Below the pieces are notes generated by a model. That model was not told the DNA's origin and made no database searches. It saw only the letters and a list, made by a program, of their open reading frames with translations. From positions 1,052,785 through 1,116,784 of the forward strand of contig NZ_JH947125.1 in the NCBI RefSeq assembly GCF_000302595.1: DNA of 64,000 bases. Direction: 5' to 3'. Positions 22,005 through 36,791 of the stretch are shown here, in pieces. The position numbers and the translations under genes were made by a program. This stretch comes from Pedobacter arcticus A12. GTDB taxonomy: Bacteria; Bacteroidota; Bacteroidia; Sphingobacteriales; Sphingobacteriaceae. How positions within the stretch are numbered: position 1 is the first letter of the stretch; each line of letters starts with the position of its first letter.

Positions 22005-23885
22005 TTGAAACCAATTCTTAGCTGCATTGTACTACTTGCCCTTGTGGGCAGCTTGTTAGTCAGCGATTATTTTTATTATCCCCTACAAACCTCATTTTTC
22101 TTCTATCTCTCTTTTGCAGCGATTATTTTTTTTATAACGGCGCTGGTTTTTGTAACAACAAAAAACCTGATAAATAGTGGCTTATCACTGCCAATTCTTG
22201 TGTTGTTAATCTGGTTTGTCTATATCATATTACAACAGCTAGCTGCCGCTGGCCTTGGATTTAACGGTTATCACGCTATTGCAAATCTCCTGCTACTAGG
22301 GTCACTTCTATTTCTATTTCGTACCGAAAAAATATCGTTTCAGTTTATCAGTGCAGGTGTTTTTATTATAGCCTTTATCCAATCATCAATATGTGTTTTA
22401 CAGTGGATTGGCTTATTAAAATCTCCTAGTGATTATTTTCAAGTAACAGGAAGCTTAACCAATCCCAATGTTACTGCAATGTTTTTAGCAATGGTGTGTC
22501 CGTTAACACTCTATTTGTGGCGCTTCCCTAAGTATCGTAGTTACATTGCATTCGCATCCAGTATTATGCTTTTAAGCTTAATATTACTGAACTGCCGTAC
22601 CGCTTACATTGGGCTCGGTTCTATTTTTTTATTGGCCATTCATTTCAAATTCAAGGTGTTTAGTCATCTTGGGCTTAACAAAAGAACTGGATTAATTTTT
22701 TTATTATTCAGTTTCTCTTTGGGCTTGGTTATCCCGGTTGTTTCAAAAATTTATCATGCAAAAAAAGATTCTGCAGATGGGCGCATATTGATCTACAAGC
22801 TCAGTGCTTCCATGGCAAAAAATGCTCCTTTTTTTGGAATTGGCTACGGAAATTTTGAACGAGACTACAATATTTATCAAGCAGATTATTTAAGTAAAAA
22901 TCCAAAAGCCGAAGGCTTTGCCCAGGCAGGACATGTAAAGATGGCTTATAATGACTATCTCCAGAATACCATTGAAGGAGGCTTGGTTGGTCTGGTATTG
23001 TTTGCCGGCAGCATTATTTTGCTCTTAAATTCCAAGAAAAAGGAAGTTAAATCATCCGATAAAGAGTCGACTTTCGATGCTTTTGCCATCGGTAAATTAG
23101 GTGTGCTTGCTTTTGCAATAATGGCAATGGTAAATTTTACTATAGAAGCCGTACCTGTAATGTTCCTGTTCATTGTTTATGCGGCGCTTATCGTTAAACA
23201 AACCAAAAGCTTTTGCACTTTAAAAAACATCTCCGCAAATTACTTTCAAGTTTCTGCCACAATTGTAGCCATATACATTTGTTACCTCACCTTTAATTTT
23301 ATTAGTGCAAACCGAAAAAATGCAATTGCAAAAGCACTCGCCCGCTCCAATCAGACTGAAAAAGCAATTGTACTGTTAAATTCTTTGAAAGAACCGCTAA
23401 GAAACCTGGAGAGCTATCACAGTAATTTCGCCTATGTTTTGTACCTCAATAACAATTCTGAGAATACCCTAAAGGAAATATTACTTACAAAAAAACACAC
23501 TTCAGATCCAAAGCTTTTTCGCTTGGCGGGGCAGTGTTACCTAAAACTGGGTCAGTTGGAGTTGGCAGCTAAAGAATTTGAGACAGAAAGCAAGCTTACC
23601 CCAACTGTTTTTGCTCCCCGTTATTACCTTATGCAGACTGCATTAAAAGCACACAATATGCCTTTAGCTATAAATACGGCCCAGGGTATTGTGGATTTAA
23701 AACCGAAAATAAAATCCAACAAAGTATTCTTCTACAAAAATCAAGCTTCGATTTTGCTTAAAAACACTGGCCTCAAGCGTTCGGTAAATCTCACCAAAAA
23801 GAAATTAACAAATCCGCTTAAAAACTGGCAATCGGCAGATTTTTCCAAGACAAATGAAACCTCACAACCGCAACAGAAATGGTAA
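22005..23885 (+). CDS. O-antigen-ligase-like membrane protein with TPR region
   Basis: A 626-residue protein with about twelve membrane segments in residues 1-430 and a soluble tetratricopeptide-like C-terminus (AKALARSNQTEKAIVLLNSL, LFRLAGQCYLKLGQLELAAKEF). The Wzy_C/O-antigen ligase features are present: LNCRTAYIGL, then FFGIGYGNFERDYNIYQ and a His in AGHVKMAYNDYLQNTIEGGL. It would move polysaccharide at the periplasmic face of the inner membrane. The only available start is a TTG at 22005, because an in-frame TAA lies at 21993-21995. It overlaps the next ORF by 7 bp. Confidence 0.78.
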   Translation: MKPILSCIVLLALVGSLLVSDYFYYPLQTSFFFYLSFAAIIFFITALVFVTTKNLINSGLSLPILVLLIWFVYIILQQLAAAGLGFNGYHAIANLLLLGSLLFLFRTEKISFQFISAGVFIIAFIQSSICVLQWIGLLKSPSDYFQVTGSLTNPNVTAMFLAMVCPLTLYLWRFPKYRSYIAFASSIMLLSLILLNCRTAYIGLGSIFLLAIHFKFKVFSHLGLNKRTGLIFLLFSFSLGLVIPVVSKIYHAKKDSADGRILIYKLSASMAKNAPFFGIGYGNFERDYNIYQADYLSKNPKAEGFAQAGHVKMAYNDYLQNTIEGGLVGLVLFAGSIILLLNSKKKEVKSSDKESTFDAFAIGKLGVLAFAIMAMVNFTIEAVPVMFLFIVYAALIVKQTKSFCTLKNISANYFQVSATIVAIYICYLTFNFISANRKNAIAKALARSNQTEKAIVLLNSLKEPLRNLESYHSNFAYVLYLNNNSENTLKEILLTKKHTSDPKLFRLAGQCYLKLGQLELAAKEFETESKLTPTVFAPRYYLMQTALKAHNMPLAINTAQGIVDLKPKIKSNKVFFYKNQASILLKNTGLKRSVNLTKKKLTNPLKNWQSADFSKTNETSQPQQKW

Positions 23886-25444
23886 ACAAGCTAACTATCC
23901 TGAATATAAAATACGTGATGATGTTTCTTTTTGGTCTTCACGCTTCCACAAATGCAGTAGCACAGGTAAAATACCCTTTAGCCGTTGAAAAGGTTTTAAA
24001 GCTTACGCCCAAGAACAGACATCAGCTGGAAAAAGTAATCGCACATTATCAAAAAACGGGAGAAACACTTAAGCTGAAAGCCACTTATTTCCTCATCAGT
24101 AATATGGATATCCATAGCTCTTACGATATCATTTGGGTAGATGCCAATCAGCAAAAAGTACCGTTTAACGAACTCGATTATCCCAATATGGAAGCGGCAA
24201 CAGCCACTTTTGAAAAACTGAAGAAACAATTTAAAGGTGTGCACCCAAAGCAGATCATTTACCGCGACATTGATAGAATCACAGCTAATTATTTGATTGA
24301 TAATATTGATAAAGCATTTATCGCTTGGAAAAGTCCGTACGCTAAAAATTTGAATTTCAGTGATTTCTGTGAATACCTTTTGCCTTACCGCATCAGTGTT
24401 GAACCCTTACAAAATTGGCGTGGCAGATACCAAAACGAGTTCAAAGATTTTTTAAATGGCGAAAAGGGTAAACCCTTAGAAAGCTTATTGACGGATCTGG
24501 CTATAAAAAGACCAGAGTTATTTTACAACAGCTTTGGCGATGAACAAGTGCGGCGGAAAGAGCCTCTACCTCGGTTAGGTGCGCTCAATTTATTGCTCCG
24601 TAAAAATGGTTCATGTGAAGATATGGCGGGTTTAGCCGTGTTCTCCTTAAGGGCGATGGGCGTTGCTTCCAGTATAGATTATGTTCCGTATTGGGCAACT
24701 TCTGCATACAGTCATTTTTTCAATGTGGCTTTTAAACCAAACAAAACCGTGGTGCCCTTTGAAATGGGTAACGCAAATAATCCCTTACAGGTAATCCCTT
24801 TACGTCGAGAGCCTTCAAAAGTGATCCGCACCACTTATAGTAAGCAAGCGGGTACACTAGCTTCTTTCACAGCTTTGGAAGAAATCCCTTCGGGTTTTTT
24901 GCGCTCACAAAATTATTTAGACGTAACCAGCGACTATTGGGAAACGGCCGATTTACCTGTAAGGCTACAGTCTGGAATTCCAAATGGTAAAATTGTTTAT
25001 GCCTGCGTATTTAACAATGGGCAGTTTAAGGCTACTTGGTGGGCTAAAGCAAGCGCAGGCATAGCAAATTTTGAAAAAATGCCCAAAGGGGTAGTTTATT
25101 TACCTATGGTTTACCAAAACAAAAAAACTGTTGTTTGTGGTAACCCTGTGGCTTTGGGCTACCATAACAAACTAGAGCTAAATGCAGACTTAAGCAAGCC
25201 CCGAAGCATTGTTGTAAAGCAACAGGACAATTACCTGCTATTTAAGTCCGGCAAAAAGTATCGTCTTTATTATTGGAAAAATGGCTGGAAATTGAGCTCC
25301 GCCCAAACTGCAATGACCAATGAAGGGCAATTGATTTTTACCAATGTTCCAAATAATGCCCTCCTCATTTTAATACCAGAGTACTCGAAACACAAAGAAC
25401 GACCATTCATCATCACCGATAAAGGAGAGCGAGTTTGGTTTTAA
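23879..25444 (+). CDS. Exported transglutaminase-like protein
   Basis: A 521-residue protein with an N-terminal signal (MMFLFGLHASTNAVAQ within residues 14-29) and a central transglutaminase-like core: Cys247 in NGSCEDMAGLAVFSLRAMG and His about 282 in SAYSHFFNVAF. The rest is unassigned. Such domains can be cysteine proteases or amide-forming enzymes acting on cell-surface protein. It overlaps the O-antigen-ligase-like gene by 7 bp, so they are translationally coupled and probably act together at the envelope. The 3' end is 56 bp from the next start. Confidence 0.75.
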   Translation: MVNKLTILNIKYVMMFLFGLHASTNAVAQVKYPLAVEKVLKLTPKNRHQLEKVIAHYQKTGETLKLKATYFLISNMDIHSSYDIIWVDANQQKVPFNELDYPNMEAATATFEKLKKQFKGVHPKQIIYRDIDRITANYLIDNIDKAFIAWKSPYAKNLNFSDFCEYLLPYRISVEPLQNWRGRYQNEFKDFLNGEKGKPLESLLTDLAIKRPELFYNSFGDEQVRRKEPLPRLGALNLLLRKNGSCEDMAGLAVFSLRAMGVASSIDYVPYWATSAYSHFFNVAFKPNKTVVPFEMGNANNPLQVIPLRREPSKVIRTTYSKQAGTLASFTALEEIPSGFLRSQNYLDVTSDYWETADLPVRLQSGIPNGKIVYACVFNNGQFKATWWAKASAGIANFEKMPKGVVYLPMVYQNKKTVVCGNPVALGYHNKLELNADLSKPRSIVVKQQDNYLLFKSGKKYRLYYWKNGWKLSSAQTAMTNEGQLIFTNVPNNALLILIPEYSKHKERPFIITDKGERVWF

Positions 25445-25500: not shown

Positions 25501-26778
25501 ATGAAAAAAACAAAGACAATGATGATCACGCTTACTGTGGCACTGTTAGCTGGGTCGGTATTTGCACAGCAGAATGCCAGCCATGCGCTTAGCCCGGGCA
25601 CCTCCAACAATTATCCTGCTCCTGTGATTAAGGAGTTGAAACAAGTCTTAGAAAAAATCCCTTTAAACACGCAGAAGCAAGAGGCAATGGCTAATTATCT
25701 CTTGAAGAAAGGAAACCGTTTAAAAGAAATAGCCAATCAGTCCCCAGAACAGCAAACTGCATTAAAAGACAGTTTGCAAAGGGTTTTTGTGAGCATGCTG
25801 AGTAACGAGGATCTGAAAAACTACTATACAGCGGTAGTGAATGCTAAAAATAAGACTAAAAAAGAAGCTGAAAAAATATTACTAAAATCAACAGATCAAG
25901 ACACCTTAAATGCAATTGCTTTAGAGAGGGATGTACAGATAGCGATGTTGAAGGACGCTGAAAACGATGTTGAAAAGTTTAAAAAGCTAAAAAGTGGCAT
26001 TGCCAGTAGTTACAAAAAAGATATTGATAAATTCCTCTTGGATAAAGGCTATAAAAAGAATGGCTACGAAGAATTTGCCGAGGGCGTTCTGCAAACCTAT
26101 GTTACCAAATACCAACTCAACAATAAAGAGAAGGACGCTTTACGGCCTTTAATTGTTAAAAAATATCGGGAACTATCCACGGTAAAGTCAAAAGATATTC
26201 CTCAAAATGCCAAAGACAGCGTAGTAAACACCATCGAGGAACAGGCCAGTAAAAATTTGGATAAGTTTATCGCTTTTTATCACAAGGCTCCTAAGAGCGC
26301 TAAATTATTGCAGATCATCTCCAAAAAATCGTATTTCCAACTCACTGAACCCCAAATAGAAAGTTTTATTGATTTTTTAGCGATAACCAGAAAAAACGGA
26401 GCAGTAAAAGAGAACAATAAAGAGGGTGTTGTTGGTCCAGACGTTTTCATAGCTAAAACCTTAAATAAAGAGCAATACCTTAAGTATTTAGCTTTAGAGA
26501 ACAAGGACAAAGCCTCCGAAAAAGCCAAAAGCGATTGGCAAGATGCTCAAAAACTGGGTTTAGCCAGTGGTTTGGACAGTGCCAGCACCCTAAAAGTTTT
26601 AACAAATTACTATACCAGTAAAATGGTTGCTCAGCAAAGGAAGGACCTTAAACCTGAAGAGCAGGAAGGCGAAGCCATACAGTTAAAAGGCGCAGTACCT
26701 TTATTGATTACCAAGCTAAAAACCGCCCGCAAAAAGCCCAATACCGAAATGGCATTAAAAAAAGGCTTTACATGGTAA
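25501..26778 (+). CDS. Exported helical protein of unknown function
   Basis: A 425-residue protein with a signal peptide (MMITLTVALLAGSVFAQ, about 7-23). The mature part is Lys/Glu/Leu-rich and predicted mostly helical, with runs such as NNKEKDALRPLIVKKYREL. No conserved enzymatic motif was recognised. It sits between the transglutaminase-like gene and the Sel1/T9SS gene, all co-directional, so it may belong to the same transcript. Function not assigned. Confidence 0.6.
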   Translation: MKKTKTMMITLTVALLAGSVFAQQNASHALSPGTSNNYPAPVIKELKQVLEKIPLNTQKQEAMANYLLKKGNRLKEIANQSPEQQTALKDSLQRVFVSMLSNEDLKNYYTAVVNAKNKTKKEAEKILLKSTDQDTLNAIALERDVQIAMLKDAENDVEKFKKLKSGIASSYKKDIDKFLLDKGYKKNGYEEFAEGVLQTYVTKYQLNNKEKDALRPLIVKKYRELSTVKSKDIPQNAKDSVVNTIEEQASKNLDKFIAFYHKAPKSAKLLQIISKKSYFQLTEPQIESFIDFLAITRKNGAVKENNKEGVVGPDVFIAKTLNKEQYLKYLALENKDKASEKAKSDWQDAQKLGLASGLDSASTLKVLTNYYTSKMVAQQRKDLKPEEQEGEAIQLKGAVPLLITKLKTARKKPNTEMALKKGFTW

Positions 26779-26830
26779 GTGAATGATAGAAACAAAGGTT
26801 CAATTCAAATTTATTCAAACTGAAAAGAAG

Positions 26831-28294
26831 ATGAAAAAAATAATGTTATCGTTTTGTATCCTGCTGTTTTACTGCGGGTATAGCAAAGCACAAACAAGTG
26901 TACCCATTAGCCCAGGCCGTATGGTCATGTTTAAAGCTTACCGTATGCTAATGAAAAATACCGCCCAATACGCACCAGATGAAGCTTTAAAAATTTACAT
27001 GGGTATTGCCGCAAAGGGAGATGGTAAAGCCATGAATGCCATAGCTAATATATATGCCATGGGTATTGGCCGTAAGATAGACAATGCAGAAGCCTTAAAA
27101 TGGTACCAACAAGCCTGCAAAGCAGGCTATGCTCCAAGCTGGTATAATTTGGCCGTAATGCATAAATATGGCTATGGCACCCCACAAGATTTTGACGCCA
27201 CCTATAAAGCTTTTAAAAACGGCGCTGTTTTAAAACAAAAACAATGTTTATACGGACAAGGCTACATGCTTTATAAAGGTTATGGCGTAGCACAAGACTA
27301 TGCGGCTGCGGTAGATAATTTTAAACAGGCGGTTAACTATAAAAGTTTAGGCAGCATGTACATGTTGGGTTTATGTTACAGAAATGGCTATGGCATTGCT
27401 CAAAACACAGACAGTGCCCGTTACTGGATAGGCCGGGCAGCAGATGCCGGCTATAAGTTTGCAAAAGATGAGATGCAGAATGCGCAGGCAGAACTTACAG
27501 CCACCTCTGAGACCATAAGCAATGATGCCGACACTTCCCAAAAAGCTCCAAAAGCTTATAAGAACATAAAGCAGAACGTAAAAGACAAAGCCCTTAAAGG
27601 AACTTACACCGGTTTTGCCATTAAGTATGATTGGAGCGGGAAACATATTTTGCAAAAAAGCAAAATTACCTTGACCCTTTATGGCAATAAAAAACAGCTC
27701 AGTGGTAATTGGGTAGAAGACGACAGCCTAAGTGTAAATCTATCGGCTAACATAACGGATAGCAGTATTGTTTTCAACCATATTAAATACCAGAAGAGCG
27801 ACCATTATAGCCAAGGTAAAAAAATAGAACTCGAGTTTAAAGAAGCCACTTTACAGCTAAACCAAAGTAACGGGAAAACCTTTATTACGGGCAATATCCA
27901 AATGTGGAACAATACCCGGCAAGAACCCGATAAGAAACTGTACATCTCCTTGAGTGAAGTTGATGAAGAGAACGCACCAGCAGTTTTGGCCAGCAACTCC
28001 AATAAAGAGGGTATAATGTCAAATACTTTGCAAAAAGCCGAAGATTTTAAACTGATGGCCTATCCCAACCCATTTGACACCCAAATCAACCTCAGTTTTT
28101 ACATGGAAAATGCCGGGCAGGTAAGCCTGACGGTAGCAGATATGCAAGGCAGGGTAGTTTACAAAAAAAGCAATCTAAGCTTTGCGAAAGGTGCACAAAA
28201 CTACAGTTTTAGCAACAGTTTGGCCTCGGGCACTTATATATTGAAGTTACAGCATGGACAAATAACAGAAACCACGGTATTGATTAGAAAGTAG
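26831..28294 (+). CDS. Sel1-repeat protein with T9SS sorting tail
   Basis: A 487-residue exported protein. The start chosen is the ATG at 26831 (MKKIMLSFCILLFYCGYSKA); the longer frame begins at 26783. Sel1-like repeats run about residues 55-200 (YGYGTPQDFDATYKAFKNGA, YKGYGVAQDYAAAVDNFKQA, YRNGYGIAQNTDSARYWIGR). A linker follows, then a T9SS type A tail (YPNPFDTQINLSFY, GTYILKLQHG, ending VLIRK). It would cross the outer membrane by T9SS and stay attached to the surface. The stop is 5 bp before the leader protein at 28300. A truncated copy of its C-terminus lies at 31.0-31.5 kb. Confidence 0.82.
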   Translation: MKKIMLSFCILLFYCGYSKAQTSVPISPGRMVMFKAYRMLMKNTAQYAPDEALKIYMGIAAKGDGKAMNAIANIYAMGIGRKIDNAEALKWYQQACKAGYAPSWYNLAVMHKYGYGTPQDFDATYKAFKNGAVLKQKQCLYGQGYMLYKGYGVAQDYAAAVDNFKQAVNYKSLGSMYMLGLCYRNGYGIAQNTDSARYWIGRAADAGYKFAKDEMQNAQAELTATSETISNDADTSQKAPKAYKNIKQNVKDKALKGTYTGFAIKYDWSGKHILQKSKITLTLYGNKKQLSGNWVEDDSLSVNLSANITDSSIVFNHIKYQKSDHYSQGKKIELEFKEATLQLNQSNGKTFITGNIQMWNNTRQEPDKKLYISLSEVDEENAPAVLASNSNKEGIMSNTLQKAEDFKLMAYPNPFDTQINLSFYMENAGQVSLTVADMQGRVVYKKSNLSFAKGAQNYSFSNSLASGTYILKLQHGQITETTVLIRK

Positions 28295-28299
28295 AAAAG

Positions 28300-29091
28300 A
28301 TGAAAAAATTAATATTTATCATTATCCTTTTCTTTAACTTAATACCAGTGTTAAAAAAGGGAGAAATAAGATTTAGCGGACCGCAGGCTGCTTTGGCAGA
28401 CAGTTTTGGGGAAGATGATGAGGATTGGGTTGACGATTGGGACTGGTTAGCTGATTATGAGGACGAAGAAACAGGTTCCAATGGTTGGGACCTTCTGTCT
28501 GATATATTAGGGTTTGAAATAACAGGTTTTTTTACTGACGCTAACGGTAACTCTGCTTTTGAATTGGCAGGGGGAGGCTATCTTTCATTTGAGGATTTAG
28601 GCATAACCGAATATGTGAACACCAATGAGCCCGAGCCCGAGCCCGAGCCCGAGCCTGAACCTGAACCCGAGCCTGAACCTGAACCTGAACCTGAACCCGA
28701 GCCCGAGCCTGAACCCGAACAATACTTAACCAATTGTTTAAACACACAGACAGACAGATGGGTAAAAGATTTAGAAAATTTAAATACTTTAAGAGATTCA
28801 CGTGAATTAGATTGTTATGCTAATGCCTTAGGTTTACCATTTTTAGACCTATTAACACTTGTACCATCACTTACAGAGGCCATTTTAACCGCAAGGCAAA
28901 CAGGAGGTGGGTCTCTTGCAGATATTGATTGGACAGGTGTTGAGAGTTTTGTTGTAGATTTGTCGGGTGCATTAGCTTCAGCACAGGGATGTACACAAGA
29001 CGAGGAAGTTCTATTTGCGCAGTCATTTTGGGCGAAGTATGCTAGTTTTCAAGCCTCGATAGAGTTCTGTTATTCTCAATATCCTAATTAA
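28300..29091 (+). CDS. Leader-type variable protein with Glu-Pro repeats
   Basis: A 263-residue protein. Residues 1-38 are shared with the product at 31541 (30 of 38 identical: MKKL-I--IL, FFNLIPVLKKG, GPQ-ALADS). A hydrophobic stretch is followed by ALADS, a plausible signal-peptide end. An acidic segment follows, then (Glu-Pro)15Glu at residues 110-140, then a ~120-residue C-terminal region with Cys and Trp but no recognised family. The pattern of conserved leader, linker and variable C-terminus suggests a toxin or surface protein, which is inference. Confidence 0.55.
   Translation: MKKLIFIIILFFNLIPVLKKGEIRFSGPQAALADSFGEDDEDWVDDWDWLADYEDEETGSNGWDLLSDILGFEITGFFTDANGNSAFELAGGGYLSFEDLGITEYVNTNEPEPEPEPEPEPEPEPEPEPEPEPEPEPEPEQYLTNCLNTQTDRWVKDLENLNTLRDSRELDCYANALGLPFLDLLTLVPSLTEAILTARQTGGGSLADIDWTGVESFVVDLSGALASAQGCTQDEEVLFAQSFWAKYASFQASIEFCYSQYPN
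28627..28719 (+). repeat. Tandem 6-bp repeat encoding Glu-Pro tract
   Basis: About 15 tandem copies of GAGCCC/GAACCT-type hexamers inside the gene at 28300. It changes length in units of two residues and is therefore a likely slippage site. It acts as a rigid linker. Confidence 0.9.
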
Positions 29092-29104
29092 GGAAAATAA
29101 TTTC

Positions 29105-29659
29105 ATGAAAGATAAAATGAAAAAAGTTTATTTTATAACGATGTGTGTTGTGACACTATTATCCTACTCATGTGCTAAAAAAACTGTTCACTCACTTCAT
29201 ATACAAGACTATAAACGACTCTCCGAAAAACAAAAAATAAATAAGAGGGAAGAGTTAATTAAAAGATTAGAAAAGGATTCGGTTTTTATGCTTTACAATG
29301 AGATTTCAAACATACAATTGGAATCTTTAATGAAAATAAATCCATCGCGAATTCCAAAAAACAAGGGTTTTGGCCAAACTATTTCTCCGACCGCAAGTGA
29401 AAAGGAAATTTATTATCGAAGTCGGGGTGTAGAAAATCCAAAAGAATTCATAAAACTTGATGTTTTGAAAACATTAACTTTAGGATTGTTGGCTAGTAAG
29501 TATCCTGATTTATTAAATATGGATATGGAAAGTCGAATAATGGTATTAAAACAGGCTAAAAAACCTTTGTCAAGTGTTGATATTTTGAGAAGAAAGAAAA
29601 TACAAGCTTGGATTATCGAAAACAATAGTCATCAAATAATTAATAGTAATAAAAAATAA
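29105..29659 (+). CDS. Small lipoprotein, unknown; possible immunity partner
   Basis: A 184-residue lipoprotein: VYFITMCVVTLLSYSC is the signal with lipobox LSYSC. The mature part is basic, helical and without a known domain. It starts 13 bp after the gene at 28300. By context it could neutralise that protein or be a surface component; no sequence evidence decides. AT-rich. An internal ATG at residue 5 is an alternative start. Confidence 0.6.
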   Translation: MKDKMKKVYFITMCVVTLLSYSCAKKTVHSLHIQDYKRLSEKQKINKREELIKRLEKDSVFMLYNEISNIQLESLMKINPSRIPKNKGFGQTISPTASEKEIYYRSRGVENPKEFIKLDVLKTLTLGLLASKYPDLLNMDMESRIMVLKQAKKPLSSVDILRRKKIQAWIIENNSHQIINSNKK

Positions 29660-29673
29660 CGTAATTTTTTCTT

Positions 29674-30204
29674 ATGAAAAGAAACCATAAATTAATACTT
29701 TTTTTCCATTGGTACTCTTTATTATTAATGCCGATATTTTACTTCCTGGTGTTTGCAATACTCTCAGCTTTTAATTATTCTTTGACAGAAAAAGATTTGA
29801 TATCGCATGCCGGCAGAATAGTCTTCGTAAATACTGTTGATGCGACTTCTAAAAAAATGGAGTTGAAATATGGTAAAGGGCATTCAGTAATTATTGGAAT
29901 TAATAATAAGCCTAATCTAGTTTTTATAAGAAGTACCAAATCAGGTTCGCCCTATGAACGGTTAATTTTATCCAGAATAAAACCAATGGATTCGGTAACC
30001 ATATTCACGAACCCTGTTATTTTTAAAACAAGATTGTATGTGGAAAAGCTTGTAAAAAATAAGCAAGAAGTTATACCTTATTTAGGAGAAATACAAAAAA
30101 AAACAAGTCTCAACTTGCTAATTATTTCATCATTGTTTTTCGCAGGATTATCTATGGTTTATTTTCTATTATTAAAAAGAAGGTATTTAAAACTGCAGCA
30201 CTGA
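29674..30204 (+). CDS. Two-TM membrane protein, unknown
   Basis: A 176-residue protein with a membrane segment near the start (LLLMPIFYFLVFAILSAF, about 17-34) and another near the end (LLIISSLFFAGLSMVYFLLL, about 148-167), with a soluble middle of ~110 residues. The topology is compatible with a membrane-bound immunity or sensor protein. No family recognised. It follows the lipoprotein by 14 bp and is followed by repeat copy 2. Confidence 0.6.
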   Translation: MKRNHKLILFFHWYSLLLMPIFYFLVFAILSAFNYSLTEKDLISHAGRIVFVNTVDATSKKMELKYGKGHSVIIGINNKPNLVFIRSTKSGSPYERLILSRIKPMDSVTIFTNPVIFKTRLYVEKLVKNKQEVIPYLGEIQKKTSLNLLIISSLFFAGLSMVYFLLLKRRYLKLQH

Positions 30205-30210
30205 TTCCCC

Positions 30211-30280
30211 ACCAGTCCGGAGTGTTCAGCGCAAGCGTCACTCCGGATTGTTTAATGGAATTGAGTTTCCAAACCCCAAG
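30211..30280 (+). repeat. Palindromic intergenic repeat, copy 2
   Basis: It has a perfect 8-bp stem CCGGAGTG (30217-30224) with CACTCCGG (30239-30246), extendable outward. The tail ATTGTTTAATGGAA is shared with copy 1. The second hairpin is degenerate here. Confidence 0.7.
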
Positions 30281-30283
30281 CTG

Positions 30284-30409
30284 GTGCGAGCTTATAGTTC
30301 GTTACCAATAAATAAGTTATTATAACAATTGATAAGTTGAAGCTAAGAGCCCGTACCGGCCGTGTTTTAGAAATGAGAAATATAAAAGGAGCGAGCTATA
30401 AGCTCGCAC
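30284..30409. repeat. 18-bp inverted repeat pair
   Basis: 30284-30301 (GTGCGAGCTTATAGTTCG) is inverted at 30392-30409 with one mismatch. The right copy also forms its own hairpin, GCGAGCT-ATA-AGCTCGC (30391-30407). It is probably a REP-type unit next to the palindromic repeat. Confidence 0.6.
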
Positions 30410-30435
30410 TAGCGGGGATTGTAATTAATGAAAAT

Positions 30436-30957
30436 ATGAAACAGCTTTTAATAATAGGATTAATATATTTATTCGTAACTTCTTGTGTAAGTAAAAAAAC
30501 AGGGACAAATAACACGATAATAAAAGATAAACAGATAGAAAAAGAAATTTCAAATAACCCAAAGTATATCCCTCTATCCCATTTCAATGGCGACACATTA
30601 AAATATCTAACGACTAATTTTACAAGTCATAAAGAGTTTTATCAAGGAAAAGGTTTAAATGTATTATTACAGGACTTAGAGTTGCCCGTCAAAGAATTTA
30701 AAACAGGGGTGAATGCAAGAGATATAAATATTAGTCCAGGTTTAAGTCTTAAATTTTATAATCGAGATATTGAAGAAAAGAAAATTAAGGAAAGAAAAAA
30801 TCCTTTAGTTCTATATGTAATTTGGCAAATACCTCTGCCAGAAGACGATGTCACTTCAATTATCAGAACCACACATGGATACTGGAATAATCAGGCGAAT
30901 AACTACTTTCGACAGTTTAAAATAAAAGAGATAGGGATGGTTGCACCCAATTATTGA
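30436..30957 (+). CDS. Small lipoprotein, unknown
   Basis: A 173-residue lipoprotein. The start used is the ATG at 30436, which gives the signal MKQLLIIGLIYLFVTSC (lipobox VTSC); the open frame extends back to 30337 through repeat DNA and looks non-coding. The mature protein has WQIPLPEDDVTSIIRTTHGYW near the end and no recognised domain. It lies between the repeat and the truncated T9SS remnant. It could be an immunity lipoprotein. Confidence 0.6.
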   Translation: MKQLLIIGLIYLFVTSCVSKKTGTNNTIIKDKQIEKEISNNPKYIPLSHFNGDTLKYLTTNFTSHKEFYQGKGLNVLLQDLELPVKEFKTGVNARDINISPGLSLKFYNRDIEEKKIKERKNPLVLYVIWQIPLPEDDVTSIIRTTHGYWNNQANNYFRQFKIKEIGMVAPNY

Positions 30958-30986
30958 TTTTTAAGATCTTTAGTCTTTAACCAGCT

Positions 30987-31016
30987 GTTCGACATGTTCC
31001 GCAGGGCATGTCGAAC
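30987..31016. repeat. Palindrome at the breakpoint of the duplicated T9SS tail
   Basis: The arms GTTCGACATG (30987-30996) and CATGTCGAAC (31007-31016) form a perfect 10-bp stem, extendable with G-T pairs to 13 bp. It lies immediately before the first bases homologous to the Sel1/T9SS gene. Confidence 0.7.
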
Positions 31017-31540
31017 TACAAAATAGGCTTGGGTGGATTGCAAATCCAAAGAGATCATTACACCCATGGCGACAATATAGAATTTGAATTTAAGGAAGCT
31101 ACTTTACAGCTCAATAAAAATGGTGGGCATATCTTTATTACTGGGAATATTGAGATATGGAACGATACAAGACAAGAGCCAGAGAAAAAATTATACGTTT
31201 CATTGAGTGAAGTTGAAGAAGAACCAGCAATTGCAAGTATAGTAGCCACCAAAAAAGAATCAAAAGTTAATACTTCGCTAAAAGTTGAGTCTTTTAAATT
31301 ATTGGTTTACCCCAACTCTTTTGATACCCAAATTAATGTCAATTTTTATTTAGAAAAAGCGGTAAGCATTAGCGTAACCGATATGCAAGGCAGAATAACT
31401 TACAAAAAAAATAATTTGAGTTTTAACAAAGGGACACAAACCTATAGTTTTAACAATAATTTTCATCTGGCACTTATATTCTAAAGTTGCAGTATGCTCA
31501 AAAACAAGAAACCACGGTACTAATTAAAAAACTAGAAAAG
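31008..31540 (+). pseudogene. Truncated, frameshifted T9SS-tail remnant
   Basis: From about 31040 this matches the C-terminal third of the Sel1/T9SS protein: EFKEATLQLN, FITGNI, DTRQEPEKKLYVSLSEVEEE, then the sorting tail with YPNSFDTQINVNFYLE and DMQGRITYKKNNLSF. It lacks a start, signal and Sel1 repeats. A missing base near 31461-31463 shifts the frame. In the shifted frame SSGTYILKLQ and QETTVLIKKLEK continue without a stop straight into the next gene, because the ancestral stop is out of frame. It is a decayed segmental duplicate. Confidence 0.8.
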
Positions 31541-32575
31541 ATGAAAAAACTGATATTAATAGGCATCCTTTTCTTTAACTTGATTCCGGTGTTAAAGAAA
31601 GGAACGATTGGGTTGGCAGGTCCCCAAACTGCTTTAGCAGATAGCTACGGAGAGGGCTGGGATAACTATGATGGACTATATGGTTCATTATCAGATCTGT
31701 ACGATTTGGATATTGTTGGGTCACATTATAATAGTAATGGTGAATTTGTTTTTGACCTTAGTGGAGGAGATTTATATTACCCGAACTCGAGTACCCTAGA
31801 TGAGGTGATAGTAACTGCTATAATAGAACCATTTCCAGATTATCAACCACCAGAGCCCATTACTGATGAAAATGCAAATGAAATATTTGATGATTTTTTA
31901 GATTGGATAAATGATAATCCACCACCAGAAACGACTCCAGATCCCTGCAATCAAGCTAATTCACTTGGCAAGAATGAGAGTTTCAAGGACAAGATGGATG
32001 ACTTGAAAGGAAAGACAGGTCTAGACTATGAAGTAGGATATTTATTCAAAAATGGTGGCAGTTCATCGGCAGATTATACATCCCTAGGTGGAGTGGCTGG
32101 GCAAACTCAAATATCGATACCAATAAGCTCAATTGCAGGGACGATTGACGGCTATATACATACTCATTATGGGAGTGGAACAATCCCTGTATTCTCAATC
32201 GGTGATATTTTATCAATATATACTTTAAATAATGCTGGAAAAATAACAGATTTAAGCACTTTTACAATTGGTGTGGTAACAGACTATGGAACACAATATA
32301 TTCTAAAAATTGATGATATTGCTAATTTCAATTCTTTTTATGATGTACACTTTACCACAAATGCAAATATGGATGCGCTAACTACCACTTATCTTGATAA
32401 TGTTGCAAACTATATGAATGCTTCAGCTATGGATTTCAAAGCAGCAAGTGAATTAGCATTTTTAAAAATGCTTGAAGGTTCGGGGATGAAAACTTTTAAA
32501 GGAAACTCGAATTTTGATAAATGGAATCCTATAAAAAACGTAAATGATGAAGTTAAACCTAATAAATGTAATTAA
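31541..32575 (+). CDS. Leader-type variable protein with JAMM-like C-terminal domain
   Basis: A 344-residue protein from the ATG at 31541, in the same context as the start of the 28300 protein. Residues 1-38 are the shared leader. Low-complexity acidic sequence follows to about 135. From about 145 the domain contains Glu164 (YEVGYLF) and His207-x-His209, then nine residues, then Ser219-x-x-Asp222 (IHTHY...VFSIGD), the order of a JAMM/MPN+ metal site. From memory, Pfam has a JAB-like toxin family (Toxin-JAB1). Role as toxin is inference; the active site is a reading of motifs only. Confidence 0.62.
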   Translation: MKKLILIGILFFNLIPVLKKGTIGLAGPQTALADSYGEGWDNYDGLYGSLSDLYDLDIVGSHYNSNGEFVFDLSGGDLYYPNSSTLDEVIVTAIIEPFPDYQPPEPITDENANEIFDDFLDWINDNPPPETTPDPCNQANSLGKNESFKDKMDDLKGKTGLDYEVGYLFKNGGSSSADYTSLGGVAGQTQISIPISSIAGTIDGYIHTHYGSGTIPVFSIGDILSIYTLNNAGKITDLSTFTIGVVTDYGTQYILKIDDIANFNSFYDVHFTTNANMDALTTTYLDNVANYMNASAMDFKAASELAFLKMLEGSGMKTFKGNSNFDKWNPIKNVNDEVKPNKCN

Positions 32576-32576
32576 T

Positions 32577-33070
32577 ATGAAAAAAATAGCGGTTATAATT
32601 TTTGTTCTTATAAATATTATTGGATGTAAGGTTAATAAATGAATAAGCAAGCTGAGCAATATTTTGAACCTGCGGAATTAAAAAAATATGAAGGAGAATG
32701 GATATATGCAGATAGCATTCAGACATTTAAAATCAACTTAAAAAAACAGGTCAGAAAAACAGCACAAGGAGCTTACTTAACAGAGTTGTATGGAAATTAT
32801 TGTTATTCCAAAAACGAGAATAAAGAATCTTGTTTTATTAATGAGAAAGACACCACGATTTCTAATGCTACAACGCTGTTTTTTAATAAAAAAGACTTGT
32901 TTTTTCTTAAAGATCGCATAAAAGAAAAAAGAGGTGAAGGCTTCCTGAAATTACTGCCCAATAGTACAGAGGAGGTTGAATGGTACCTCCGTAATCCGGA
33001 AGGTATGATCGGAGACTTTGACCAATCCTTTTCTGTACCCACAAAATTAATTCTAAAAAAAGTTAAATAA
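32577..33070 (+). pseudogene. Lipoprotein interrupted by a short insertion (candidate immunity gene)
   Basis: An ATG at 32577 gives MKKIAVIIFVLINIIGC, a clear lipoprotein signal, then stops after five residues (TGA 32640-32642). The body follows in another frame from the overlapping ATG at 32639 (143 residues, with YEGEWIYADSIQTFKINLKK). The DNA GTT-AATAAATG-AATAAGCAAG looks like an 8-nt insertion that duplicates AATAA; removing it joins signal and body. It starts 1 bp after the JAMM-like gene. Either it is broken, or the body is made by ATGA coupling without the lipid anchor. Confidence 0.6.
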
Positions 33071-33424: not shown

Positions 33425-33877
33425 ATGGTTAATCCTGGAGACAAATTACGCCAATTGAGGCAAAAAGGAAATATTAAGCAAACTACAATCGCCCATCTTT
33501 TGGAAGTTAGCCAAGGTAAAATATCGAGCATAGAGAAAAACTCAAGCCCTCTAAACACGAAACAGCTTCTTGTTTTAGCAGAATTTTTTAAAATTTCGCC
33601 GACTTATTTTTTTGAGACCGATGATTCCCCTAAGGTTTCTGAGAATGAAGAATGCCTTAAGAGAATTCAAGCTATTCTTACTGATTTTAAACAAACTTCA
33701 GAAAATTTTAAACAGCAATTAGTGGATAAGAATACAATTATCACCCTGCAATCCCTTCATGTTGGTAAAAGTGATGAAATGGTAAAAAGTTTGGAACTGA
33801 AAGTAGGGAGGATAAAAAGTGAGATGAAAACATTGAAAGAGGAAGTCACGCTGTTAAGAAGTATAGTAAATGTCTAA
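33425..33877 (+). CDS. XRE-family regulator with coiled-coil tail
   Basis: A 150-residue protein with an N-terminal HTH_3 domain (about 6-62): KLRQLRQKGNIKQTTIAHLL, SQGKISSIEK and LLVLAEFFKISPTYFF. The second half is charged and helical with heptad-like spacing (LQSLHVGKSDEMVKSLELK, LKEEVTLLRSIV), likely an oligomerising coiled coil. It may regulate the neighbouring variable-protein locus, but this is not shown. It sits between inverted repeats. Confidence 0.85.
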   Translation: MVNPGDKLRQLRQKGNIKQTTIAHLLEVSQGKISSIEKNSSPLNTKQLLVLAEFFKISPTYFFETDDSPKVSENEECLKRIQAILTDFKQTSENFKQQLVDKNTIITLQSLHVGKSDEMVKSLELKVGRIKSEMKTLKEEVTLLRSIVNV

Positions 33878-34405
33878 CCCACCATGTCCCGGTTGTTCAG
33901 CGTACGCGTTGCTCCCGATCGTTATAATGGAAAAGAGTTTTAAAACTCAATAAATAAAAATAACGCAACATCAGGAGTTGCTCCTTTAAGTTATGGGCCT
34001 TGTAATTCCGAGCTTTGGCAAACAGAGGTGGGAGACTTGTGCTTTTGATTAAATTAAAAGCGCAAGTCAGGCGCTTTCACAGGCAATCACGCTAAGACTT
34101 GCGCTAGATGGCGTAACCGATAATTTTCGCCCTTGGCGATTGCGGTAGTGATGAAGAAATAAAAGTACTGCCATTGTAGCAAGCGGCGTAGCCCGAGAGT
34201 TTTTTTTACTTTTTTGCGGAAAAAAAGTAAATGCCACTGCCCGGCATGAGGGCAAGTAAGCCTGTGTGTGAACGCAATTGGCCACTCAACTAAGAGCACC
34301 GATAAAAAAACCGGAAAACTTGATTAAAAACTCGTCTAAAAAATCTCCCATAAATTTGATAAATTGCAAGCCCAAATTAAATGGCAAATAACAGGATTTT
34401 AAAAC
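33878..34405. other. Gene-free stretch rich in repeats
   Basis: A 528-bp spacer between the XRE gene and ffh. It contains repeat copy 3, a copy of the GGGAGACTTGTG unit (34006-34046), a 10-bp inverted pair AGCGCAAGTC (34059-34068) and GACTTGCGCT (34096-34105), and the inverse 15-mer AAGACTTGCGCTAGA (34094-34108). Open frames on the minus strand (34067-34299) cross these repeats and are judged non-coding. Confidence 0.55.
33880..33951 (+). repeat. Palindromic intergenic repeat, copy 3
   Basis: A diverged copy of the repeat at 21725 and 30211: TGTTCAGCG, CTCC, ATAATGGAAAAG shared in order. The second hairpin is a perfect 14-bp palindrome GAGTTTTAAAACTC (33934-33947). Confidence 0.65.
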
Positions 34406-35755
34406 ATGTTTGATAATCTTCAGGATAAGCTCGAAGGAGCATTTAAAGTATTAAAAGGACAAGGTAGCATTACCGAAATTAACGTGGCCGAAACCATGAA
34501 AGAGATACGTAAAGCTCTTTTAGATGCCGATGTTAACTATAAAACAGCAAAAACTTTTACCGATGAGGTAAAACAGAAAGCACTGGGTCAAAACGTATTG
34601 ACCGCCATTTCTCCAGGTCAATTGTTGACCAAAATCATGAACGACGAGCTTACCGAATTAATGGGTGGCAGCGTTGATGAGCTAAATATCAAAACAAATC
34701 CAACGGTTATATTGATAGCCGGTTTAAACGGAGCGGGTAAAACTACTTTTACCGGTAAACTGGCTTTATATTTAAAATCACAAAAAGGAAAAAAGCCATT
34801 ATTGGTAGCTGGTGATGTTTACCGCCCAGCGGCTATTGACCAATTAGAGGTTTTAGCTGGACAGGTTGGCTCCGAAGTTTATACCAACCGAGAATCTACC
34901 GATCCAGTAGCTATTGCTTTAGAAGGTATTGCACACGGTAAAAAGAACGGTAATAACGTAATTATTATTGATACCGCCGGTCGTTTAAGTTTAGACGAGG
35001 CGCTGATGACAGAGATTGCTGAAGTTAAAAAAGCAACACAGCCTCAGGAAATTTTGTTTGTGGTAGATGCCATGACCGGGCAAGATGCCGTAAATACTGC
35101 AAAAGCATTTAACGATCGATTAGATTTTACGGGAGTTGTATTAACCAAATTAGACGGTGATACCCGTGGAGGTGCGGCTTTATCTATTAAATCGGTAGTT
35201 AACAAACCTATTAAATTTGTAGGTACCGGCGAAAAAATGGATGCGCTGGATGTGTTTTATCCAGACAGAATGGCTTCCCGTATTTTGGGAATGGGTGATG
35301 TGATTTCTTTGGTTGAAAGAGCACAGCTACAGTTTGATGAGAAAGAAGCGGCGGCTTTACAAAAGAAAATCCGTAAGAATAAATTCGATTTCAACGATTT
35401 CATCGGGCAAATCCAACAGATCAAAAAAATGGGTAACATTAAAGATCTAATGGGCATGATTCCAGGTGTTGGTAAAATGATGAAAAACGTAGATATCGAT
35501 GACGATGCTTTCAAAGGAATTGAATCCATTATCCAATCTATGACGCCTTTTGAGCGTGAAAACCCAGAAACAATTAACCAGAGCCGTAGAGGAAGAATTG
35601 CAAAAGGTAGCGGAAACGATATTGCGGAAGTCAATAAATTGATGAAACAGTTTGAGGATATGCGCAAAATGATGAAGCAGTTTTCCGATCCATCAGCCAT
35701 GGCAAAAATGCAAAAAATGATGAAGGGAATGCCAAACGGTGGTATGCCGAGATAG
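34406..35755 (+). CDS. ffh: Signal recognition particle protein Ffh
   Basis: A 449-residue SRP54-type GTPase that targets nascent membrane proteins to FtsY with 4.5S RNA. N domain about 1-90, G domain with GLNGAGKTTFTGKL, DVYRPAAIDQL, DTAGRL and TKLDGDTRGG, then the methionine-rich M domain ending in MKQFEDMRKMMKQF and MAKMQKMMKGMPNG. Full length and typical. It has its own terminator; 4.5S RNA is not visible here. Confidence 0.97.
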   Translation: MFDNLQDKLEGAFKVLKGQGSITEINVAETMKEIRKALLDADVNYKTAKTFTDEVKQKALGQNVLTAISPGQLLTKIMNDELTELMGGSVDELNIKTNPTVILIAGLNGAGKTTFTGKLALYLKSQKGKKPLLVAGDVYRPAAIDQLEVLAGQVGSEVYTNRESTDPVAIALEGIAHGKKNGNNVIIIDTAGRLSLDEALMTEIAEVKKATQPQEILFVVDAMTGQDAVNTAKAFNDRLDFTGVVLTKLDGDTRGGAALSIKSVVNKPIKFVGTGEKMDALDVFYPDRMASRILGMGDVISLVERAQLQFDEKEAAALQKKIRKNKFDFNDFIGQIQQIKKMGNIKDLMGMIPGVGKMMKNVDIDDDAFKGIESIIQSMTPFERENPETINQSRRGRIAKGSGNDIAEVNKLMKQFEDMRKMMKQFSDPSAMAKMQKMMKGMPNGGMPR

Positions 35756-35779
35756 AAATTGCTATAGAATAAGATTTGA

Positions 35780-35815
35780 AAGGATTTTTTGACTTAGTCA
35801 GAAAATCCTTTTTTT
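35780..35815 (+). terminator. Terminator after ffh
   Basis: Stem AAGGATTTT (35780-35788) with AAAATCCTT (35802-35810), followed by a T run; an inner TGAC/GTCA pair strengthens it. Confidence 0.8.
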
Positions 35816-35911
35816 ATATAAAAGCATATCGGCAACTGAAAAAGGCACAGACTTTGTAAATATTTGGTTAAAATCAGACGAAAGTCTATTGTAAAACTAA
35901 ATCAAAATATC

Positions 35912-36061
35912 ATGGGAGGCATTCTTTACATTATTGCAGTTGTTTTAATCATCGGTTGGATATTCGGTTTTTTCGTATATTCTGTAGGTTCGTTGATACA
36001 CATTTTGTTAGTGATAGCTGTTGTTGCAGTATTGCTAGCGGTTATAAGGGGTTCGGCTTAA
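35912..36061 (+). CDS. Lmo0937-type small membrane protein
   Basis: A 49-residue, two-helix membrane protein: MGGILYIIAVVLIIGWIFGF and SLIHILLVIAVVAVLLAVIRG. This matches the widespread lmo0937/DUF5670 small membrane protein family. The ATG at 35912 is chosen because the family starts MG(G)ILY and the longer frame adds a charged non-family N-terminus. Function unknown, often stress-linked. Confidence 0.82.
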   Translation: MGGILYIIAVVLIIGWIFGFFVYSVGSLIHILLVIAVVAVLLAVIRGSA

Positions 36062-36212
36062 GCCTGGTTTATTAAATGTTTTTTGGGCAGATTAAAATAT
36101 ATCGATTGTTTAAAATCCAATAGTCAAAGATCTTCGTAAATGCTTTTATTGAAGTATTAACATACCAAAATAAATTTTTTATATTTGCGTTCTCTTTAAC
36201 AAACACATTATC

Positions 36213-36518
36213 ATGCAAATCGGTAATTTATTATTTCTGAACTTAGGTACTCAAGAGGTCGTATTGATCATGTTTGCAGTGCTATTATTGTTCGGAGGAG
36301 AAAAACTTCCGGAGTTGGCAAGAGGTTTGGGGAAAGGAATTAGAGAATTTAAAGATGCTTCTGATGGTGTAAAAAGAGAAATACACCGCAATATAAATGA
36401 GCTTACTGCTACTGAAGAGTTAAAACGCGAAGAAGAGTTGGAGCGTTTGAACGAAAACAAAGTGGAGGAAAAGCCAGCAGAAACAATAGAAGAAAACAAA
36501 GATTTTAACACAAATTAA
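36213..36518 (+). CDS. tatA: TatA/TatB-family twin-arginine translocase subunit
   Basis: A 101-residue Tat subunit: an N-terminal membrane helix (TQEVVLIMFAVLLLFGGEKL), the hinge PELARGLGKGIREFKDA, then a long charged amphipathic helix and a Glu-rich tail. It would form part of the Tat pore for folded, twin-arginine proteins. The length is between TatA and TatB. A second, shorter TatA-like gene follows by 12 bp. No tatC is nearby. Confidence 0.88.
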   Translation: MQIGNLLFLNLGTQEVVLIMFAVLLLFGGEKLPELARGLGKGIREFKDASDGVKREIHRNINELTATEELKREEELERLNENKVEEKPAETIEENKDFNTN

Positions 36519-36530
36519 ATAAACAAAACG

Positions 36531-36707
36531 ATGGGTTTAGGTGCTCCAGAAATTATCTTAATTGTATTGGCTTTATTGCTTTTATTTGGTGGAAAAAAGA
36601 TTCCAGAATTGATGAGAGGAATGGGAAAAGGTGTAAAGGAATTTAAAGATGCTCAAAGTGGCATTGATAAACCAGAGAAACCAGAAGAAAATCAACAACA
36701 AAATTAA
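36531..36707 (+). CDS. tatA: Second TatA-like small protein
   Basis: A 58-residue TatA paralogue below many ORF-calling cut-offs: MGLGAPEIILIVLALLLLFG, then KKIPELMRGMGKGVKEFKDAQ and a short acidic/Gln tail. The FGGKKIPEL hinge and amphipathic helix match TatA/E. Together with the preceding gene it makes a TatA pair. Start ATG at 36531, stop TAA at 36705-36707. Confidence 0.88.
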   Translation: MGLGAPEIILIVLALLLLFGGKKIPELMRGMGKGVKEFKDAQSGIDKPEKPEENQQQN

Positions 36708-36738
36708 AATTTCCTAAATTTATTTAGGAATCTATTAA

Positions 36739-36784
36739 CCTTGAACGGTCGAAATTTGTAATTTCGAAAGTTCAAGGTTTTCTT
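36739..36784 (+). terminator. Terminator between tatA pair and gatA
   Basis: A strong hairpin: CCTTGAAC (36739-36746) with GTTCAAGG (36770-36777), inner CGAAATT/AATTTCG stem, then TTTT. A smaller hairpin TTCCTAAATttATTTAGGAA precedes it (about 36712-36731). Confidence 0.8.
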
Positions 36785-36791
36785 TTATAAA

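Follow-up and report, generated by a model that had tools for sequence, protein, structure and literature searches.

What kind of system do two genes form that begin alike, end differently and each follow the 3' end of the same secreted-protein gene? The question is raised by a stretch of 64,000 nucleotides from Pedobacter arcticus A12 (contig NZ_JH947125.1, positions 1,052,785 to 1,116,784; hereafter the window), in which the genes starting at 28300 and 31541 both lie directly behind sequence encoding the tail of a Sel1-repeat protein with the C-terminal domain of substrates of the type IX secretion system (T9SS). A preliminary description had read this arrangement as a polymorphic-toxin locus tied to the T9SS. 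We conclude, with a probability that we put at roughly 0.8, that the locus is a polymorphic antibacterial toxin/immunity system built on a conserved four-gene unit, which ends in the Sel1-repeat T9SS substrate; at the level of sequence, the comparisons establish that the core is conserved and the tips vary, that the arms are repeated, and that some of the loci have known toxin and immunity domains. The wider question is whether the T9SS, the main secretion route of Bacteroidota, serves interbacterial warfare.

The four-gene core and the gene behind it

The positions given earlier for the open reading frames (ORFs) are all borne out by the ORF list of the window, but the locus had been taken to start at 26783, which is too far downstream: the conserved unit begins at 22005, and three upstream core genes as well as a longer shared N-terminal region of the two variable proteins (effectors) had been overlooked. 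The unit and the effectors behind it comprise:

22005-23885, + strand: core gene 1, O-antigen-ligase-type (Wzy_C) membrane protein with C-terminal TPRs (Pfam PF04932, E=7.7e-16), below Wzy-TPR
23879-25444, + strand: core gene 2, secreted transglutaminase-like protein (PF01841 below the cut-off, E=0.0043)
25501-26778, + strand: core gene 3, exported protein of about 425 residues, function unassigned, no Pfam family over the cut-off
26783-28294, + strand: core gene 4, Sel1-repeat solenoid, beta-barrel and T9SS type A C-terminal domain
28300-29091, + strand: effector 1, with signal peptide, shared pre-toxin region, (EP)n linker and a small Cys-containing C-terminus without recognised activity
31541-32575, + strand: effector 2, with a leader as in effector 1 and a JAMM-type metallopeptidase-like C-terminus
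31796-31813, + strand: LDEVIV, a TonB-box-like motif in effector 2
31940-32572, + strand: JAMM-type domain of effector 2

Core gene 4, whose translation likely starts at the ATG at 26834, matches Sel1 (PF08238, 3.3e-17) and Por_Secre_tail (PF18962, 3.5e-10) in Pfam and TIGR04183 in NCBIfam. When 251 genomes of the family were searched with its product at 1e-20, four were found to carry it, the window's own included. In the other three (G040, G113 and G184; genomes and loci are designated by G and L numbers) the gene order is alike, comprising the Wzy-TPR gene, the transglutaminase-like gene, a gene for a protein of 289-430 residues, the Sel1/T9SS gene and a gene for a signal-peptide protein with a differing C-terminus, which is followed by small lipoproteins or secreted proteins. 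An alignment of the four sequences, used to scan one genome per species, gave 30 loci, with carriers that include Pedobacter segetis, P. mendelii, Flavobacterium johnsoniae CI04, F. cellulosilyticum, Pinibacter soli, Bacteroides nordii and metagenome-assembled genomes of Chitinophagaceae.

With homology between loci defined by BLASTP at E<=1e-3, the Sel1 proteins are homologous in all 325 of 325 pairs. The Wzy-TPR gene lies within six genes of Sel1 in 19 of the 26 Sel1 loci (window included, and some of them on short contigs), with 171/171 pairs homologous, and the transglutaminase-like gene is present in 18 of the 26 (152/153 pairs); the homologue of the latter in L085 matches PF01841 at 1.3e-4, likewise below the cut-off, and Cys246 and His279 of this protein are invariant in 4/4 sequences. 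The gene for the 425-residue protein directly precedes Sel1 in 17 loci (107/136 pairs). The effectors are homologous in only 39 of 300 pairs over their N-terminal 90 residues and in 9 of 300 over their last 150, and with five more loci (30 in total) the C-termini are homologous in 10 of 435. The constant part of the system therefore resides mostly in the partner gene, and Sel1 proteins that are 60-67% identical precede unrelated effectors, e.g. in L117/L120 and L092/L104. In 29 of the 30 loci the effector starts at most 21 nt from the Sel1 stop codon or overlaps it, the exception being L084 with 46 nt. In all these comparisons L080 and L083 are excluded as duplicates of L034 and L036, L096, L097, L099, L101, L102 and L109 stand outside the pair counts (with a Sel1 ORF that is absent, truncated or no longer than 440 residues), and L108 is excluded from the effector counts. 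No core gene besides Sel1 is found within the stretch compared in L084, L106, L107 and L121.

Related gene sets have been observed elsewhere. In L068 (8206-16412), the pair of a transglutaminase-like and a 334-residue protein adjoins a gene for a small Cys-rich peptide, lipoproteins and a gene that reads as Wzy-TPR-like, with no Sel1. In L070 (7146-11650) and L071 (90-6844) a JAMM-type lipoprotein gene lies next to, or is flanked by, a 660-residue transglutaminase-like gene and a gene read as Wzy-TPR-like, again with no Sel1/T9SS gene, which is perhaps an ancestral or a parallel form of the same system. L076 (429-1935) encodes, close to a TPR-type membrane protein and a transglutaminase-like protein, a tandem of three small secreted proteins that contain Cys; to the eye they resemble the small C-terminus of effector 1, and the first of them has no Pfam match. 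Comparison of the transglutaminase-like profile with the PDB gave weak matches, the best being 4fgo ('Periplasmic protein', E=0.068), which we take to be LapG; neither the match nor this identity is used as evidence.

Shared leaders and repeated junctions

The two effectors of the window had been described as sharing 30 of 38 N-terminal residues and being unrelated thereafter. By eye, 30 of the first 38 residues are indeed identical, but "unrelated" applies to the C-terminal domains only, because similarity reaches to about residue 105, before the proline-rich linkers (BLASTP, 59 of 152 columns identical, E=4e-22). The leader reads mainly as a signal peptide of the Sec type (A-x-A after a hydrophobic segment), behind which comes an acidic-aromatic stretch. 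Within its own genome it matches only these two places. Searching the 251 family genomes with the leader alone, as had been proposed, gave a single convincing match beyond the own genome (G184, E=1.7e-5) plus weak ones in eight others, and missed G040 and G113; as these have related leaders, the leader is too short and too variable as a query, and the Sel1 protein was therefore used instead. Leaders that are related precede different C-termini, and a cassette pattern is present even with a leader that is mostly signal peptide, so that neither of the outcomes named earlier as refuting the idea was obtained. In the window it is formed by:

27797-28403, + strand: repeat arm copy 1, the 3' part of the Sel1/T9SS gene and the effector leader
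31008-31530, + strand: frameshifted remnant of the 3' end of the Sel1/T9SS gene (63% identity, E=3.5e-51)
31050-31644, + strand: repeat arm copy 2, a DNA match to 27797-28403

The two arms are 71.9% identical over 608 columns (E=3.6e-85), and the repeat spans the 3' part of the Sel1/T9SS gene, the gap and then the leader, so that a Sel1/T9SS tail stands before both effectors, as had been noticed. The second tail is a remnant, as was also said: it is 63% identical to Sel1 residues 320-463 and has a frameshift between 31460 and 31463, where two tblastn pieces lie in different frames. The duplication of leader and junction is real and far beyond chance.

Such tail-plus-leader junctions are repeated, before further effectors, in 4 of 28 loci, namely in the window (72% identity), L034 (92% and 80%), L035 (98%) and L093 (97% over 882 bp). 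L034 has two more copies that hold the Sel1 tail only or barely reach the leader, L093 has additional leader-only copies, and in L120 a repeat of 98.5% identity lies within the N-terminal part of the effector. Arms as similar as those of L034, L035 and L093 suggest that duplication or conversion occurred recently. The array of F. cellulosilyticum (L093, 11563-21553) has four near-identical leaders, and the two of its effectors that were scanned are lipase-like, below the cut-off.

From these features we propose that the gene behind Sel1/T9SS would encode a Sec-exported toxin, composed of a signal peptide, a short pre-toxin region, a low-complexity linker and an exchangeable C-terminal domain. 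Its immunity genes would adjoin it, and further cassettes would lie downstream, some of them preceded by a duplicated Sel1 3' end with a leader. As the arm lies mostly inside the gene upstream of the toxin, homologous recombination between arms would replace toxin and immunity gene together and place a new pair behind an intact Sel1 gene. Cassette exchange by recombination is thus likely; of the earlier claim, the repeated junctions, with up to 98% identity, are confirmed, and the exchange itself was not seen.

Toxin domains and candidate immunity genes

A recognisable toxin or hydrolase domain is present in about half of the 30 effectors. Over the Pfam cut-off are AHH (L106, L118), Tox-MPTase2 (L119, L120), Tae4 (L105), Muramidase (L094) and GH19 (L082, L095); below it are Lipase_3 (L093), DUF7689 (L084) and Prok-JAB (L036). 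M23 and GH19 occur, too, in the array of L035, where the ORFs concerned lack the leader. All 30 have an N-terminal hydrophobic segment, and by a simple pattern none has a lipobox. The toxins would likely kill related bacteria, often by attacking the wall or envelope in the periplasm. The polymorphic-toxin reading is hence upheld by C-termini shared in just the few pairs given above, by these domains and by neighbours of the immunity type.

In the JAMM-type effectors, all five residues of the motif (E ... HxH ... S xx D) are invariant in 6 aligned C-termini. In effector 2 the spacing from HxH to S is longer than the usual one, and no Pfam family matches this protein at E<=1; 8 JAMM-type proteins scanned gave no match to a Pfam toxin-JAB family. 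A JAMM match was obtained in 13 genomes. JAMM proteins also occur away from the core, and a DUF6705 gene is next to JAMM in six of the eight such loci, from six of these genomes, that were examined (L072, L073, L077, L078 and L079 by Pfam, L074 by reading). The pairing was rejected as a rule outside the core, since L070 and L071 have no DUF6705 neighbour. In genome G249 a JAMM lipoprotein gene with a DUF6705-like gene directly after it is present three times (L072, 8230-10160; L073, 6947-8885; L074, 6522-8452), two of them near genes that read as Rhs-like.

The genes between and behind the effectors of the window are:

29105-29659, + strand: lipoprotein, candidate immunity to effector 1 (lipobox-like LSYSC, by reading)
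29674-30204, + strand: membrane protein with a hydrophobic segment close to either end (by reading) and no match to a Pfam family over the cut-off, possible second immunity protein
30436-30957, + strand: lipoprotein, probable orphan immunity gene; its family is the one found behind the JAMM effectors of L036 and L092
32577-33070, + strand: DUF6705 candidate immunity lipoprotein (PF20448, E=1.9e-9)

In L034/L080 the small Cys-rich effector is likewise followed by a lipoprotein, to which the one at 29105 is weakly similar (12/48 identical, E=9e-5). BLASTP finds no relation between the small Cys-containing C-terminus of effector 1 and that of L034/L080. The lipoprotein at 30436 (ORF 30337-30957) matches the L036 family with 70 bits (phmmer). 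In L036 (4003-7713) one JAMM effector is followed by seven tandem paralogous candidate immunity genes, an array of the polyimmunity type, and the same lipoprotein family follows the JAMM effector of L092.

The interleaved lipoproteins and membrane protein had been compared with immunity genes, which agrees with the neighbours found across loci, these being of the immunity type (Imm11, lipoproteins). Imm11 follows the AHH effector in L106 (34.5 bits over a cut-off of 22.1) and, marginally, in L118 (19.4 bits); the assignment of the other candidates is inferred from position, co-variation and compartment. Of the five locus pairs that share the next gene, four also have the effector C-terminus in common (hypergeometric p=4e-7), but these four are not independent, because three of them form one trio. 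As for compartment, the next gene has no N-terminal hydrophobic segment behind 2/2 AHH effectors and has one behind 8/8 wall-, lipid- or JAMM-type effectors (L036, L082, L092, L093, L094, L098, L105 and L117, the last being JAMM by reading), against a base rate of 21/28 (Fisher 0.02), which is the pattern that cytoplasmic (AHH) and periplasmic toxins, respectively, would need. The compartment test omits L119 and L120 (Tox-MPTase2) and L084, where the next gene has a hydrophobic N-terminus, and L035, L090, L100, L103 and L121, where it has none; this test and that of co-variation were both devised after the sequences had been seen.

The same domains could suggest that the variable gene encodes self-acting envelope enzymes, involved in wall remodelling or proteolysis for the Wzy/transglutaminase unit, and that its variation is due to drift or to an insertion hotspot. 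Many of the domains are indeed wall or peptide hydrolases, and the transglutaminase-like gene and its neighbour occur without Sel1 or effector in L068 and L069. On the other hand, AHH with Imm11, Tox-MPTase2 and Tae4 do not fit this explanation, and neither do the tandem arrays of candidate immunity genes (seven copies in L036) and the partial co-variation of toxin and next gene. Nucleases would be senseless for self-remodelling. We consider this explanation very unlikely.

Several observations weigh against a polymorphic toxin/immunity system. No recognised domain was found in 14 of the 30 effectors (effector 1 of the window, L034, L081, L085, L087, L088, which is cut by the contig end, L089, L090, L091, L100, L103, L104, L107 and L121), and that of L035 consists of a leader ORF separated from its M23 domain. 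Outside the 30 loci, the ORF next to Sel1 is 190 and 236 nt away in L096 and L099, and in L108 the next gene, at 121 nt, is no effector. L094 and L117 share the next gene and not the effector, and a detectable next gene is shared in only 4 of 8 pairs that share the effector. The JAMM cassette of the window may be silent, because the Sel1 tail before it is broken and so, it appears, is the DUF6705 gene after it, whose body (32639-33070) lies in a different frame from the lipoprotein signal directly before (32577-32642). Exchange within a species was not seen, as one genome per species was compared. The system is also rare: in a sample of 392 genomes of the phylum, four are positive at E<=1e-60, the window's own included (two of the four with two matches each), a prevalence that may be underestimated because at most four candidates per genome were scored. 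To these must be added that the T9SS domain is on the Sel1 protein and not on the effectors (TIGR04183 at E<=1e-3 in an NCBIfam scan, 0/28), so that the exit route of the latter is inferred.

Possible export and entry routes, and relation to known systems

The tie to the T9SS that had been proposed holds as a gene linkage; as a secretion route it is no more than a proposal. TIGR04183 is matched at E<=1e-3 by 22 of 24 Sel1 proteins, and the window's genome encodes SprA (TIGR04189, 2640 bits, G000:C1:1129120-1136010). A structural model of the Sel1 protein (pLDDT 79.6) comprises the Sel1 solenoid, an eight-stranded barrel and the T9SS domain. We give an even chance to the mechanism that is simplest to envisage, in which the solenoid would bind the N-terminal region of the effector in the periplasm, and the T9SS domain would then carry the toxin through the T9SS across the outer membrane. 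It may instead be that the toxins are real and the T9SS link is incidental: they would exit by outer-membrane vesicles, lysis or some other secretion system, and the Sel1/T9SS protein would be co-transcribed with them but have a separate function at the cell surface. The lack of a T9SS domain on the effectors fits such a situation, as do the JAMM proteins away from the core, some of them lipoproteins and two near Rhs-like genes. It is harder to reconcile with the close spacing of Sel1 and effector in 29/30 loci, with a core that is kept across families, and with L105 and L119, where Sel1, effector and next gene have remained together despite a rearranged core; we therefore regard an incidental link as unlikely, if far from negligible. 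The likeness to the Sel1-repeat immunity proteins PA5086-PA5088 of Pseudomonas aeruginosa is a fold match only: in the present loci the Sel1 protein is a constant element with a T9SS domain, upstream of different toxins, which makes it a partner, not a specific immunity protein.

A further element that may bear on the fate of the toxins is the LDEVVV-like motif of some effectors. In its strict form, L[DENQGHS][ED][VI][VICTL][VIL] within residues 21-150, it is found in 8 of 29 effectors and in 0 of 359 other ORFs of the same loci (shuffle mean 0.06), compared with 11/29 and 30/359 for a broader pattern; the count used 29 of 34 rows and omitted three extra L093 cassettes, L089 (a near-copy of L085) and L099_6862 (not an effector). 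Over residues 21-220 of 601 distinct ORFs the strict motif has 12 carriers, comprising 10 effectors (three of them from one L093 array), one protein that reads as a SusC-like receptor, and one other. In five effectors found later it occurs in 0/5, with one near-match. The tested TonB box of the SusC protein Bt1763 of B. thetaiotaomicron is VDEVVV, according to passages of PMC7782687, and group B colicins carry a TonB box, according to passages of PMC11658791.

The motif may thus be a TonB box that would draw the toxin into target cells, a possibility that we hold as tentative: it stays a lead, because the pattern was chosen post hoc, most effectors do not have it and it sometimes lies in the shared region. 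We lean slightly towards the alternative that it is no TonB box but simply one beta-strand of the pre-toxin fold, or else a strand docking to the Sel1 protein. This would agree with its equal placement in the shared pre-toxin region of effector 2 and L093 (with a variant in L082, by eye), and with its absence from 21 of 29 effectors and from the five later ones under a pattern chosen after the sequences had been seen; it accords less well with L090, L092, L085 and L099, where the motif comes close after the signal peptide in unrelated low-complexity surroundings, and with the composition of the 12 carriers among 601 ORFs, in which the SusC-like receptor presumably contributes its own TonB box (by reading). 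If all elements are combined, the loci would encode a family of protein bacteriocins whose toxins are exported as Sel1-type T9SS passengers, enter via TonB-dependent receptors by a TonB box of the Bacteroidota type and are diversified by two-gene recombination arms. This full combination is doubtful; if true, it would represent a T9SS-out, TonB-in weapon.

Group B colicins, which are released by lysis, offer a comparison. They resemble the present system in having a secreted toxin with a short motif like that of TonB receptors, a C-terminal toxin domain and an immunity protein (passages of PMC11658791). They differ in that the effectors have a mere motif resemblance, in 8/29, no receptor-binding domain identified and a proposed T9SS-linked route out of the producer. 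The likeness to classical polymorphic toxins extends to cassette arrays, Tox-AHH and Tox-JAB-type domains, Imm11 and tandem immunity genes (Zhang et al. 2012, PMC3482391, in part); the same source, as far as the passages used go, pairs Tox-JAB-1 of Bacteroidetes with Imm65, an immunity protein with signal peptide and lipobox. Unlike in those systems, here the constant part is mostly in a separate upstream gene, so that the homology arm crosses a gene boundary.

TANFOR toxins are often encoded beside a gene with a T9SS C-terminal domain, and their export by the T9SS has been proposed, according to passages of Jana, Salomon and Bosis (2020, PMC7073777), on which the likenesses given here also rest: signal peptide, variable C-terminal toxin, downstream immunity gene and T9SS-domain neighbour. 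The locus could accordingly be a sub-class of TANFOR polymorphic toxins of Bacteroidetes, as it shares with them the phylum, the signal peptide, the neighbouring T9SS substrate and an overlapping toxin repertoire. However, the NCBIfam matches obtained for 28 effectors include no TANFOR family (the presence of a TANFOR model in the library being unconfirmed), and the partner is a Sel1-repeat/beta-barrel protein, not one with SprB, Fn3 or PKD repeats. Besides, TANFOR proteins are called large in that paper and the shared N-terminal region here has about 100 residues, three more conserved genes lie upstream, and the arms span the 3' end of the partner gene. We hold a TANFOR sub-class to be highly improbable.

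Polymorphic toxins and TANFOR toxins near T9SS substrates are thus already known; the combination of a four-gene core, a Sel1/T9SS partner and a two-gene recombination arm, as it appears in the loci compared, was not found described. Among the open-access literature matches listed there is no description of a Sel1/T9SS-linked toxin set, in a scope that leaves out most subscription papers and all preprints, and a word search of PMC12618676 and PMC8754138 gave nothing on such toxins. By a word search, 'antibacterial' and 'competition' are absent from a 2023 review of T9SS effectors (PMC10202324), and a model system for the T9SS in bacterial warfare is still needed, as stated in a passage of PMC7073777. 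The present system is compact and conserved, and also present in F. johnsoniae CI04 (L085, with an effector without recognised domain). Genetic tools exist for F. johnsoniae. For three of the core genes (Wzy-TPR, transglutaminase-like and 425-residue) a connection with toxins could not be guessed from their family names, and the system suggests roles for them too.

A plasmid origin was rejected, as 38 plasmid records match part of the Sel1 protein and none matches over 80% of it; the ten listed of the 38 are partial Sel1/TPR-type matches, one annotated as a CHAT protein. A phage origin was also rejected, with no phage match for the JAMM-type domain. Between the cassettes of the window lie repeated or inverted-repeat elements resembling repetitive extragenic palindromes (30215-30252, 33886-33923 and 30280-30413), and a gene for a helix-turn-helix regulator (33425-33877, XRE-like by reading) directly follows the last cassette. 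The locus sits upstream of ffh, tatA and gatA (34406-38231, names by reading), and in L077 (4395-8861) a JAMM/DUF6705 pair is located directly downstream of tatA and gatA; these surroundings are possibly a shared insertion spot.

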